This document shows positions 2-25,005 of a stretch of DNA of 64,000 nt, piece after piece (the first letter of the stretch is position 1; every line of letters starts with the position of its first letter). This DNA is from an uncultured Litoreibacter sp. (GTDB lineage Bacteria; Pseudomonadota; Alphaproteobacteria; Rhodobacterales; Rhodobacteraceae): the NCBI GenBank assembly GCA_947504205.1, contig CANNGL010000001.1:372001-436000 (forward strand), in the 5' to 3' direction. A model generated the notes under the pieces. The model had not been told where the DNA came from, did not search any database, and saw nothing but the letters and a program-made list of their open reading frames with translations. Made by a program: the position numbers and the translations under genes.

Positions 2-421
2 ATACTTTATACGATCCTGTGGTCCTTGGTGGGTTTTGGTCTGCTGTTCGCATTGTTCATCCGGTCAGACATCGATCTGACAGTGGAGGCCGTGCGCAAC
101 CCGACATTCGTGACCTTGTCAGATGGCTCGATCCGGAATGTCTATACCCTGCGTCTGCGCAACAAGCATGGCGAGCCGCGCGATTTCCGGGTGTCGCTTT
201 CCTCCGAAGAAATCCTGCGTATCAATCTTGAAGCTGATCGTCGCAACCTGATCACTGTCGATCCTGACAGCACAACCCAGCAACGTGTCTATGTCACAGC
301 GCGTCCGCAGGATCCTGCAGCACGTCTGGACCGCACGGAGCTCCGCTTCTGGGTCGAAGATATTGAGAGCGGCGAGCGCGCATATCGAAACTCTGTCTTT
401 AATGGAAAGGTGTCACCATGA
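2..421 (+). CDS. ccoG: CcoG (FixG) cbb3 oxidase accessory protein, C-terminal part
   Basis: The reading frame is open at the left edge, so only about the last 139 residues are present. CcoG is a membrane polyferredoxin-like protein that takes part in copper delivery for cbb3-type cytochrome c oxidase. The visible part has one hydrophobic segment (about residues 5-22 of the fragment) followed by the extracytoplasmic beta-rich domain typical of CcoG C-termini, with the family's 'SDGSIRN.Y.LR.RNK' stretch. The ferredoxin cysteines lie upstream of the window. Its TGA overlaps the ATG of ccoH (ATGA). The ccoH, ccoI and ccoS genes that follow make the assignment secure. Confidence 0.93.
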   Translation: MLYTILWSLVGFGLLFALFIRSDIDLTVEAVRNPTFVTLSDGSIRNVYTLRLRNKHGEPRDFRVSLSSEEILRINLEADRRNLITVDPDSTTQQRVYVTARPQDPAARLDRTELRFWVEDIESGERAYRNSVFNGKVSP

Positions 422-20952: not shown

Positions 20953-20986
20953 TTTCGAATTGCGCTGTGGCGCAATCCGACCAAGG

Positions 20987-21030
20987 CGAGGGGGGCTCTG
21001 CCCCCCTCGTACTCCCCCCGGGATATTTTT
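20987..21030. repeat. Palindromic GC-rich intergenic element
   Basis: A perfect 9-bp stem, CGAGGGGGG/CCCCCCTCG (20987-20995 with 21001-21009, loop CTCTG), is followed by CTCCCCCCGGGATATTTTT. It lies between the 3' ends of convergent genes. The layout resembles a dispersed intergenic element I recall from other Rhodobacteraceae genomes, often placed after genes as a terminator. Only one copy is visible in this window. Confidence 0.55.
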
Positions 21031-21053
21031 GAACATGGGAAGACAGGCTGGAT

Positions 21054-21908
21054 TCAGAAAGAGGGTGTGTCTTCGAAGAGTTTTCCCAATTGTCTTATGA
21101 GCGCGTCATTCCCCCTTGTGATCAGGGCAAGTTCGCGGGTCACAGGGCAAGGCTCGGACTTAAGAACGCTCAGCCGGCCATCATCGAAACGTTGTATGTC
21201 GGGGAGGGGGAGCAGCGTGAAGCCCAAGCCCCGCGCGACACACCCGACAATCGCCTCAACACTGTCGAGCACGACCACGTCGGAGGCGCGCTTGCCCACT
21301 TCTTTCGCAATCAGCTTGCCGATGCCAGATGCGGGCATGAAGTGGAAGAAACGCGATTGCACAAACAGTTTTTTCAGCGAGGTTTTGGCCATGTCGCTGG
21401 GGGCCACATAAACCAGCGGCTCCACCCGCAGGCTTTGCAGCGTCAGATCACTTTGGGTTTGAATTTCCGCCGTGATCACGGCTGCATCAAGCGCACCGGA
21501 TCGCACACGGGCCTCTAATGATGCAGAGAGGTCTGTTTCGATCTCGAACCGGGCGGCGGGGGCGCGTCTTTCACTTTGTATCAGAAAATTCGGTAGCAAT
21601 CTGACGCTGGCGGTCGGGACAAACCCTATGCGAAACTGGCCGCGCAGCTCGGTTTGGGGTGTTGCAAGTGCGCGTATTTCGCGTTCTGTCTGCGCCATAT
21701 ACTCCGCCTTATCGCAGATCTGACGGCCAAGCGGGGTGAGTTGCGGCGGCCGGTGGCTTCGATCAAACAAGGTGACACCCAGATCAGCCTCCAGCGCCTT
21801 TATCTGCATGGAGACAGCCGAAAGTGTCATATTGCGCGCCTCGGCAACGGCGGCAAAGCCACCCAATTGCCGGATTGCGAGAAGCGTATGAAGAGCGCGG
21901 GTCTGCAT
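21054..21908 (-). CDS. LysR-family transcriptional regulator
   Basis: 284 residues from the ATG at 21908; an in-frame TTG ten codons upstream is unlikely because LysR proteins usually begin a few residues before the first helix. The winged HTH covers about residues 1-62: 'ALHTLLAIRQLGGFAAVAEARNMTLSAVS' then 'LEADLGVTLFDRSHRPPQLTPLG'. The C-terminal effector domain contains 'RGLGFTLLPLPDI'. It is divergent from the acyl-CoA dehydrogenase gene at 22004 with about 95 bp of AT-rich DNA between, so that gene is the probable target. No Shine-Dalgarno is obvious, so the message may be close to leaderless. Confidence 0.87.
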   Translation of the reverse strand: MQTRALHTLLAIRQLGGFAAVAEARNMTLSAVSMQIKALEADLGVTLFDRSHRPPQLTPLGRQICDKAEYMAQTEREIRALATPQTELRGQFRIGFVPTASVRLLPNFLIQSERRAPAARFEIETDLSASLEARVRSGALDAAVITAEIQTQSDLTLQSLRVEPLVYVAPSDMAKTSLKKLFVQSRFFHFMPASGIGKLIAKEVGKRASDVVVLDSVEAIVGCVARGLGFTLLPLPDIQRFDDGRLSVLKSEPCPVTRELALITRGNDALIRQLGKLFEDTPSF

Positions 21909-22003
21909 AAATTCAATAAATCTGTAATTAATTTGCAAATCAATTACGTTTTACTGAATTTGTTAGATGACTACACTCGTGGTGATTTCGAAAAGGGGAA
22001 ACC

Positions 22004-23191
22004 ATGCCCAAGCCACTGATCGATGCAGCCCGCGATTTGTCTAGCAGATTTGCTGGTCGCGCGGCCCATTGGGATCGGACGCGGAGTTATCCTTGGGAGA
22101 ATGTCGCGGCGTTGCAAGAGGCGGGTCTGATGGGCGCCACGGTCCCGCAGGCCTATGGCGGGCGGGGTGCCGGGCTGCAGGATATCCTGCCTGTGATCGA
22201 GGAGATTGCTAAAGCCTGTACGCTTACGGCGCGAATCTTCGTTGAGGGCAATATGGGTGCGATCAGCGCTGTTATGGCGTATGGAAGCGCGGTCCAGAAG
22301 GCGCGCTGTGCCGCGCTTGTTTTGGCCGGGGAAAAGCCGGCGATTTGTATTTCAGAGCCCGATGCAGGCAGCGCAGCCAGCCAAATGACAACAACAGCGC
22401 GCAGAGATGGCACAGGCTATGTTCTGAACGGGACGAAACACTGGATCACAGGCGGCGGCGTCTCGAAGCTGCACCTGATCTTTGCGCGGGTTCTCTCGGA
22501 CACTGGGCTCGAACAAGGGATCGGCGCATTCATTGTGGTTTGTGACCCGTCGAAAGGTGAGATGCCAGAGGGCTTCAAGGTGGTGGGTCGCGAGACGACC
22601 ATGGGACTTCGCGGCATGCCCGAGGCGACGCTGAGCTTTGAGAACCTGCGGGTCGATGCGGAGATGGCATTGCTGCCTGCTGGTGGGTTCGCTGATCTGA
22701 TGTCGGCCTATAATACGCAGCGGGTCGGGGCGGGTGCGATTGCCATGGGCGTTGCTGCTGGCGCCACACAGCATGCGATAAGATATTTGAAGGAACGGCA
22801 TCAGTTTGGCCGCCCAATCGCTGAATTTCAGGGTTTGCAATGGATGCTGGCTGATATGGAGACCGGTGTGAGTGCTGCTCGATTGTTGCTTCAGGACGCA
22901 GCGCTTTCGGCCGATACGTTCCCGGACCCGACAAAGGCGGCGAAGGCCAAGCTGTTTGCATCCGAGACTGCGATCAAAGTGGTGAATGATGCCCTGCAGA
23001 TGTTTGGTGCGCGCGGATATTCGGATCGCGAGCCGCTGGAACGCATGTATCGTGATGTGCGTATGTTCACCATTGGCGGGGGCACGGCACAGGTTTTACG
23101 CACCCAGATCGCGAGCCGGGCGTTGGGGCAGAAGCTGCCGCAGACCCGCGATGGCCACATGCTACAAGCGGAACCGCTTGCGGCAGAATAG
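22004..23191 (+). CDS. Acyl-CoA dehydrogenase-family flavoprotein
   Basis: 395 residues with the full acyl-CoA dehydrogenase fold: helical N-domain, beta-domain motif 'CISEPDAGSAASQM' (115-128) and 'GTKHWITGGG' (143-152), and C-terminal 'RHQFGRPIAEFQGLQWMLADM' and 'LERMYRDVRMFTIGGGTAQVLR'. The family would oxidise an acyl-CoA to the 2-enoyl-CoA with FAD. The place of the usual catalytic Glu ('EGT') is Gly359, and the alternative helix position used in isovaleryl-CoA and long-chain enzymes is Gln239, so the base is unclear. It has a good ribosome site (AAAGGGGAAACC). No electron-transfer or beta-oxidation genes are adjacent. Confidence 0.83.
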   Translation: MPKPLIDAARDLSSRFAGRAAHWDRTRSYPWENVAALQEAGLMGATVPQAYGGRGAGLQDILPVIEEIAKACTLTARIFVEGNMGAISAVMAYGSAVQKARCAALVLAGEKPAICISEPDAGSAASQMTTTARRDGTGYVLNGTKHWITGGGVSKLHLIFARVLSDTGLEQGIGAFIVVCDPSKGEMPEGFKVVGRETTMGLRGMPEATLSFENLRVDAEMALLPAGGFADLMSAYNTQRVGAGAIAMGVAAGATQHAIRYLKERHQFGRPIAEFQGLQWMLADMETGVSAARLLLQDAALSADTFPDPTKAAKAKLFASETAIKVVNDALQMFGARGYSDREPLERMYRDVRMFTIGGGTAQVLRTQIASRALGQKLPQTRDGHMLQAEPLAAE

Positions 23192-23301
23192 CTGACATCG
23201 ACTGTACCGATTTAGCCAAAATGTGTCCCACTTGACCGAACAGGGCGTGCTCGGGCAGTCTTACCCCATTGTTTTAAGAAGTTTTCCGGAGGTTATCCGA
23301 G

Positions 23302-23682
23302 ATGTTGTTAGATATTGAATTGAACTCCACAGAACTGTCCAACGACAAGCTGCACAGCGTAACGCAACGGCTGCGCAGAGCTCTCGATGAAGAGCGCGGC
23401 GTTTCGGCAGATCTCAAACGCGCAGCAACCGGGGAAGGCGACAAGGGGGCGGCGGTGGCGATTGGCGCCATCGTCATGGAGGTTCTCAAGGCCTCAGGGA
23501 CGGCTGCGATTATCGAAGTGCTTGGCAACTTCCTGACCCGAGAAAAATCGCTCAAAGGCACGATTACTTTCCCCGACGGGCGCAAGGTAGAGCTAACCAC
23601 CACCAATCTTGAAACGGATGAATTCCACCGGGCCTTGAACTTGATGGCCGCCGACGGAGCGGTTGATCCGTCCCAGTCATGA
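23302..23682 (+). CDS. EACC1-like effector-associated protein
   Basis: 126 residues, preceded by GGAGG with 9-bp spacing. The order of features is an N-terminal strand, a helix 'LRRALDEERGVSADL', a glycine/alanine-rich hydrophobic segment (about residues 49-70, 'GAAVAIGAIVMEVL' then 'GTAAIIEVLGNFL'), a basic turn 'TREKS' and a C-terminal 'GTITFPDGRKVELTT' hairpin. This matches the pattern I know for effector-associated constant component 1 (EACC1), a small protein found beside caspases and other effectors in bacterial conflict systems. Its TGA overlaps the ATG of the caspase gene (ATGA), so the two are co-translated. The glycine-rich segment could dip into a membrane or pack as helices. Its exact role is unknown. 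Confidence 0.72.
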   Translation: MLLDIELNSTELSNDKLHSVTQRLRRALDEERGVSADLKRAATGEGDKGAAVAIGAIVMEVLKASGTAAIIEVLGNFLTREKSLKGTITFPDGRKVELTTTNLETDEFHRALNLMAADGAVDPSQS

Positions 23683-24929
23683 GCGCGCGTCGCTGCGCGA
23701 TCCTGATTTCGCAGGACCGCTTCCCCGAAGACGATGATCTGGGTGATCTGAGCTATGCGAGATCTGACGCCAATGCAGTTGCAGGCGTCTTGGAGCATGA
23801 AGATGGCTCGACCTACGATCTTGTGGAAAAAGTCGAAAATGGCACTCATCATCAAGCCTTGAGAAAGATAGAGCGGATAACGGCTGATCTGTTCGAGGAT
23901 GATTTCCTCTTCGTTTATTATTCAGGTCACGGGTTGGTTGGCAGCAATGACAAGCTGCATTTGGCATTTGAAAACACGGAAGCCAGGTTGCTCAACAGCA
24001 CCGCAATGAAAGCCGGCACGTTGTTGGATATTCTCGATGATGCAAAGCCGTCCGCGCGATTGCTGGTCTTGGATTGCTGCTATGCGGGGGCCATTGGGGC
24101 CGAGTTCAAACGCTCCAGCATAGAGGACGCAGTGCGGATCGAGGCATCCTCCCACGGGACCTTCGTGATGACCTCGGCGACTTCATCCCAAGTGGCAAAG
24201 GAGAGCCCGGTATACGGGCAAGGTGTGTTCACCAAGCATCTGGTCGATGGTCTGAACGGTGCTGCGGATTTGGATGGAGACGGGCGTGTCTCGGCCGATG
24301 AATTATTCAGCTATGTCCGCAAAAACACCATGCGCGAAGGTCGCCAGGAGCCGCGCAGGTTCAATATTGATGCAGGTTCGAGTTTGATCCTGCGGGAAAC
24401 GGGACACGCACCGCATGACGAGTTGATCGAACGGATCACTCACCGTCTGCATGAGCTGCATCGTGAAAAGCAACTTGCCCCTAGTGTGGTGTCCGAGGCG
24501 ATCGCACAGCTTGATCGGCGCCCTTATGAAATGACGGATGTGGAGCAGGCCCGTTTCGGCTTGTTGAAAGCTTCCCTCGAGGATCCCTTTATCCCCGGCA
24601 GTTTTATGGAGCAGTGGGAGCGCACCCGCCAATCGCAAAACCCGAACCAGAGCACGGTCGGGCACGGGACGGCTGAGACTATAAGTAACAAGAAGCCGAA
24701 GCCGGACCCAGATATTGGTGATAAATCTGACCAACCATCTAACGCTCATCAGGGTAAGGCATCGACGGCGAACACCACGGAGACGGCACAGAACACCTCA
24801 AGCGATCAAGGCGGCTCGACGGACCAATCCGATGAGAAAAGCACCTTTGAACAAATTGCGGATTTTGCGTGGAAAGGGGCCCTTTGGTTCTTCGCAATCA
24901 TCATCGTTCTGGCGTTTCTGGGAGTGTGA
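23679..24929 (+). CDS. Caspase-family (C14) protease with EF-hand loop and C-terminal membrane anchor
   Basis: 416 residues. The caspase/metacaspase domain spans about 1-235: catalytic His84 in YYSGHG and the DCCYAG motif (132-137) with Cys134 at the nucleophile position, preceded by 'ARLLVL'. Inside the small-subunit region a canonical EF-hand loop, D197-x-D199-x-D201-G-x-V-x-x-x-E208, suggests calcium binding. A helical domain (about 244-315) follows, then a Ser/Thr/Asn/Gln-rich linker (316-388) and one C-terminal hydrophobic helix (about 399-415) ending at the last residue, a tail-anchor layout. No signal peptide is present, so the protease is probably cytoplasmic and membrane-tethered. 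Bacterial caspases of this kind act in suicide or conflict systems, but the substrate here is unknown. Confidence 0.88.
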   Translation: MSARRCAILISQDRFPEDDDLGDLSYARSDANAVAGVLEHEDGSTYDLVEKVENGTHHQALRKIERITADLFEDDFLFVYYSGHGLVGSNDKLHLAFENTEARLLNSTAMKAGTLLDILDDAKPSARLLVLDCCYAGAIGAEFKRSSIEDAVRIEASSHGTFVMTSATSSQVAKESPVYGQGVFTKHLVDGLNGAADLDGDGRVSADELFSYVRKNTMREGRQEPRRFNIDAGSSLILRETGHAPHDELIERITHRLHELHREKQLAPSVVSEAIAQLDRRPYEMTDVEQARFGLLKASLEDPFIPGSFMEQWERTRQSQNPNQSTVGHGTAETISNKKPKPDPDIGDKSDQPSNAHQGKASTANTTETAQNTSSDQGGSTDQSDEKSTFEQIADFAWKGALWFFAIIIVLAFLGV

Positions 24930-25005
24930 GGCAGCGCTCAGTTCCTGAAAGAAAAACTCGACTTTAACTTGACGCGTTGCGTCGGACGGGAAACAGTTAT
25001 CTGCA

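Follow-up and report, generated by a model that had tools for sequence, protein, structure and literature searches.

An EACC1–caspase gene pair in an uncultured Litoreibacter as a candidate two-gene conflict module

The gene pair and its products

The DNA analyzed here is a stretch of 64,000 nucleotides (the window) from an uncultured Litoreibacter sp., which harbors on its + strand two overlapping open reading frames (ORFs) that together form an EACC1–caspase pair and a candidate conflict module. The ORFs, each with an ATG start, span 23302-23682 (126 amino acids, aa) and 23679-24929 (416 aa). The small protein matches Pfam family PF19953 (EACC1) with E = 3.7e-7 and 30.5 bits, above the cut-off of 23.6, and the large protein passes PF00656 (Peptidase_C14) with E = 7.4e-13 and 49.2 bits (cut-off 21.4). 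Features of the pair are as follows.

23288-23292, + strand: Shine-Dalgarno GGAGG for EACC1, 9 nucleotides 5' of the ATG, read from the sequence
23302-23682, + strand: EACC1 protein, 126 aa, constant partner of the caspase (PF19953; AlphaFold2 predicted local distance difference test, pLDDT, 80.8; predicted template modeling score 0.74)
23452-23541, + strand: EACC1 hydrophobic segment, residues ~51-80, spanning the presumed position of the transmembrane (TM) helix of the literature; modeled as strand 52-61 and amphipathic helix 66-80
23679-23682, + strand: ATGA overlap of the caspase start and the EACC1 stop, from the sequence
23679-24929, + strand: EACC1-associated caspase, 416 aa
23928-23930, + strand: codon of catalytic His84, invariant in 75 of 75 alignment rows
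24078-24080, + strand: codon of catalytic Cys134, invariant in 75 of 75 alignment rows
24267-24302, + strand: EF-hand-type loop, caspase residues 197-208, DLDGDGRVSADE, from alignment and structure model
24414-24635, + strand: four-helix stalk, caspase residues 246-319, from the predicted structure model
24678-24836, + strand: low-confidence linker, caspase residues ~334-386 (pLDDT <50 at 334-337 and 344-384)
24837-24923, + strand: predicted C-terminal TM tail, helix 387-415 (best hydropathy window 396-414, mean 2.18)

These features bear out a first-pass annotation of the sequence, which had read a 126-residue EACC1-like protein with its own Shine-Dalgarno sequence joined by ATGA to a caspase with an intact His84/Cys134 pair, and a check of the small protein against known families supports its identity as EACC1. 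The ATGA overlap suggests that translation of the two genes is coupled. The product of the 3' gene carries its caspase-superfamily domain at the N terminus; the dyad is intact, the model shows a confident caspase fold, and Gly85 is as invariant as His84 and Cys134. These row counts refer to alignment A4, which comprises 75 of 81 caspases and leaves out L117, L127, L129, L141, L153, and L158 as short, mis-started, or odd sequences. The window caspase also aligns over nearly the whole of the NCBIfam model NF047832 (“caspase, EACC1-associated type”; residues 6-216 on model positions 2-207 of 211, E = 3.6e-40), with a score of 137.7 bits that lies below the cut-off of 140. Beyond the caspase domain, the window protein has no further Pfam domain above cut-off; matches of the relatives L082-L089 extend to its residues 313-377. 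When compared with solved structures of the paracaspase MALT1, metazoan caspases, and a plant metacaspase, the window caspase shares 11-16% identity, and its membrane tail and EF-type loop set it apart. The calcium site of metacaspases differs from the site of the EF-type loop.

Conservation of the pair and its published relatives

We scanned genomes with a caspase alignment and kept the best 80 of 556 loci, to which all counts on 80 loci refer. An EACC1 ORF lies directly upstream of the caspase in 71 of these loci with an iterated EACC1 profile and in 69 with the first-pass profile (L087 and L142, among the 80, sit in the seed of both profiles), and reversed upstream segments used as control gave 0 of 519 EACC1 matches; the pairing is thus far from chance, which speaks against a random association of the two genes. 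Of 72 EACC1 rows scanned one by one, 40 have a PF19953 match at E ≤ 0.01. Linked loci are found in Actinomycetota, Chloroflexota, Cyanobacteriota, Pseudomonadota, a Desulfobulbus, and the archaeon Methanocrinis, as well as in single metagenome-assembled genomes of planctomycete, acidobacterial, and fibrobacterial origin. The archaeal pair (L101, 940-1311 and 1322 onward; Candidatus Methanocrinis natronophilus) falls outside the range given in the published passages. A caspase match is further present in 29 plasmid records, and EACC1 stands beside the caspase in 13 of the 18 plasmid loci examined.

Several of these loci depart from the architecture of the window pair. A Nonomuraea ORF (L070, 2611-4980) carries an EACC1-like stretch and a caspase in one frame, by eye an apparent natural fusion; the caspase ORF of a Streptomyces plasmid (L078, 2986-5499), with EACC1 upstream, continues into a DnaK-annotated stretch; and the alphaproteobacterial EACC1-linked caspase of L057 / L142 (946-2676) has a long and different C-terminal extension.

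The window pair belongs to a system type already in print and does not represent a new kind of module. In the parts of Kaur et al. 2020 (PMC7159879) that describe EACC1 systems, tabulated there in 671 organisms, a two-gene EACC1–caspase unit that lacks a nucleoside triphosphatase (NTPase) is the canonical form, termed “System 4,” and NTPases are found among the alternative C-terminal fusions, of which there are up to 50. The suggestion of the first-pass annotation that such pairs usually come with a larger NTPase component, and that a pair standing alone would be unusual, therefore falls, since the NTPase-less pair is normal in System 4 as described. The window pair resembles System 4 in its 5' EACC1 and 3' caspase genes, the TM segment of the caspase, the lack of an NTPase gene, and a sporadic occurrence in proteobacteria (PMC7159879, same passages). 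It differs in the minimal C terminus of the caspase (stalk, linker, and one tail helix), in the EF-type loop relative to the main text of that study, and in an EACC1 modeled as soluble rather than with the one TM helix of the published description. Beyond the published passages, what is added here are the EF-type loop in the caspases and the ferredoxin-like EACC1 model.

In the functional proposal of Kaur et al. 2020 (PMC7159879), the TM segment of EACC1 serves as a sensor whose role is to activate the caspase. We considered the opposite arrangement, in which EACC1 is an inhibitor that keeps the caspase silent and whose loss frees it, much as in a toxin–antitoxin system. The small 5' gene that overlaps a larger enzyme gene and the constancy of EACC1 across varied caspase C termini fit this arrangement, which we nonetheless judge unlikely: the single-frame EACC1-like–caspase ORF of Nonomuraea (recognized by eye) is ill-suited to a free labile antitoxin, and the published proposal is one of activation.

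An EF-hand-type loop in the caspase and the fold of EACC1

The sequence DLDGDGRVSADE fits a canonical 12-residue EF-hand loop, with acidic residues at positions 1, 3, and 5, Gly at position 6, a hydrophobic residue at position 8, and an acidic residue at position 12, and in the model is flanked by helices 183-195 and 206-220 and includes a short strand, 203-205. Of the 66 A4 rows linked to EACC1, 64 have Asp at position 1, 58 have Asp/Asn/Ser at position 3, 56 have Asp/Asn at position 5, and 64 have Gly at position 6; positions 8 (Ile/Val/Leu) and 12 (Asp/Glu/Gln) conform in all 66. A strict loop pattern after the catalytic Cys is found in 65 of 81 caspases (L117, misread as a 52-residue stub, counts among the misses) versus 21 of 16,000 shuffles, which ignore kinship. 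Pfam EF-hand models match weakly and below cut-off (EF-hand_5, 17.6 versus 25.9 bits). Neither “calcium,” “EF-hand,” nor “Ca2+” occurs in the main text of PMC7159879 or PMC3501461, and the consulted part of PMC6426788 records an EF-hand motif in seven archaeal orthocaspases; in the literature searched we met no description of this loop as characteristic of EACC1 caspases, which is no proof of its absence in print. As judged from alignment and model, the loop suggests calcium as a co-signal or switch, and its canonical EF-hand form within a helix-loop-helix of the caspases makes calcium gating testable.

AlphaFold2 models EACC1 as a ferredoxin-like soluble domain, with a strand and a helix in place of the single TM helix of the published account. 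The hydropathy of the EACC1 segment is borderline, 1.65 in the window protein and at least 1.6 in 49 of 71 relatives. EACC1 may be a soluble ferredoxin-like domain, as the model would have it, or may harbor a single TM helix. A constant α+β component alongside a caspase also characterizes the EACC2–caspase/TRADD-N systems in the pertinent passages of Kaur et al. 2021 (PMC8195603), and the RRM-type core ascribed to TRADD-N in PMC7159879 broadly resembles the EACC1 model; unlike in the window pair, EACC2 as described in PMC8195603 shares one protein with the caspase, with TRADD-N as the partner gene.

Local history and candidate mechanism

The window pair occupies a variable spot, the junction between oligopeptide binding-protein and permease genes (20953-25005), which in the window contains a LysR gene, an acyl-CoA dehydrogenase gene, and the EACC1–caspase pair, and in relatives nothing or other ORFs. 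One such ORF we take to be iron-type alcohol dehydrogenase-like; another, in genome G007, encodes 310 aa with no Pfam match, and nucleotide similarity between the window and G007 stops at 23107 and restarts at 24968. The neighboring permease is kept in 11 of 21 genomes of the genus, the Litoreibacter genome included (E 1e-120), and the ten other syntenic sites have no EACC1 or caspase match. EACC1 itself is found in none of the 20 other genomes of the genus, so the pair looks recently acquired, given also those ten syntenic sites that lack it. The G+C content of the pair is close to that of its surroundings. We consider that the pair was probably acquired horizontally into this variable spot of the oligopeptide ATP-binding cassette transporter genes. 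A broader EACC1 profile matches 5 of 394 sampled genomes of the family, with a caspase alongside in three (the Litoreibacter genome, G569, and G790), a lower bound with ten candidates scored per genome. Within the stretch from G569 lies a piece of 100 bases from locus L089 of Sedimentitalea arenosa, and this puts the window in that family. What the first-pass annotation had described as a minimal module in a Roseobacter chromosome, and expected to be little studied, is rare in its lineage (0 of the 20 other genus genomes and at least 3 of 394 family genomes). The Litoreibacter genome harbors no EACC1 besides that in the window; a second caspase-domain ORF is located elsewhere in this genome (L172; G000:C2:862350-862826).

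We read the pair as a System 4 EACC1–caspase conflict module, in which a membrane-tethered, EACC1-controlled caspase would serve defense or programmed death, and place the probability of this reading at roughly 0.6; the proposal of a candidate conflict or programmed-death module is in this sense upheld from sequence, as a candidate. Its basis is the two genes, the dyad, the conserved pairing, the EF-type loop, the predicted membrane tail, and the sporadic distribution, from which we infer topology, trigger, a regulator role for EACC1, substrates, and outcome. The caspase would be cytosolic and tied to the inner membrane by its single C-terminal helix via the helical stalk and flexible linker, with EACC1, from the overlapping gene, as its constant regulatory partner. 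A membrane or infection signal would act via EACC1, with calcium at the EF-hand loop possibly contributing; the activated caspase may then process itself and/or cleave cell proteins, and this activity would lead to cell arrest or death.

A number of results weigh against this reading or its parts. The NF047832 score lies 2.3 bits short of the curated value (139.5 bits in the genome search), and PADLOC returns no EACC1 model match and only its generic caspase model. No EACC1 was found upstream in 9 of the best 80 caspase loci or in 5 of the 18 plasmid loci, and in a sample of the phylum the Litoreibacter genome alone exceeds the EACC1 cut-off (1 of 398). We found no experiment on any EACC1–caspase in the literature searched, and PMC7159879 and PMC8195603, in the parts consulted, are computational. 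Mean pLDDT across the five EACC1 models falls from 80.8 to 71.2, and the uncharged EACC1 stretch is flanked at position 48 by Lys/Arg (72 of 72), at position 77 by Trp/Tyr (62 of 67), and at position 80 by Arg (58 of 71), which a TM helix would fit too. Nor is the loop exclusive to EACC1-linked caspases: it is present in 8 of the 9 unlinked proteins among the best 80, versus 57 of 72 linked ones, it also occurs in 4 of 32 other caspase loci, and it is absent from most of a Micromonospora/Nocardia clade of ~1,440-aa proteins. On a tree of 79 of the 81 caspases and 19 of the 32 other caspase loci, the EF label requires 13 changes (shuffled mean 25.9), and the loop was therefore gained or lost several times. 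In this tree, the window caspase sits on a long branch (1.13) and is thus a divergent member, as an inactive remnant might be; with both frames open, a ribosome site present, dyad and loop intact, and the caspase fold confident in the model, however, we regard a remnant as very improbable.

The neighborhood also bears on the reading. None of the eleven neighbors Pfam-scanned between 17939 and 31208 is a defense gene, and their metabolic, transport, and regulatory character would suit a membrane protease that is regulatory and non-lethal, with a task such as envelope homeostasis and no part in conflict. In a comparison of ten loci (the window and nine proteobacterial relatives; neighbors within 4.5 kb, E 1e-8), the kin loci L082, L083, and L084 have their whole neighborhood in common, which fits such a protease and argues that the pair is not always freshly moved. 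Beyond these three, no neighbor ORF is common to any two of the ten loci, and no neighbor is common to all ten, which argues that the module has no third gene. This absence of shared neighbors, the accessory pattern of the pair in the family, and the ten syntenic genus sites that lack it all oppose a non-lethal role, which we consider somewhat less probable still than inhibition by EACC1.

Within the conflict-module reading, a more specific scheme, which we consider less likely than not, makes EACC1-associated caspases calcium-gated, membrane-tethered death proteases. A breach of the inner membrane, by phage entry, pores, or attack on the envelope, would admit calcium that is read by the EF-hand loop in the caspase fold, and EACC1, as a soluble ferredoxin-like adaptor and not a TM sensor, would set the threshold or assemble the enzyme. 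If true, this would be a calcium site unlike that of metacaspases, kept across Actinomycetota, Chloroflexota, Cyanobacteriota, Pseudomonadota, and one archaeon. The small version found here, with one tail helix and no extra effector domain, is a simple one for testing, and the conserved EF-type loop offers a cheap test of the trigger. The modeled fold of EACC1 is in turn grounds for a second look at its supposed place in the membrane. The interest of the window pair thus lies in the loop and in the fold of EACC1, both of which concern the whole family.
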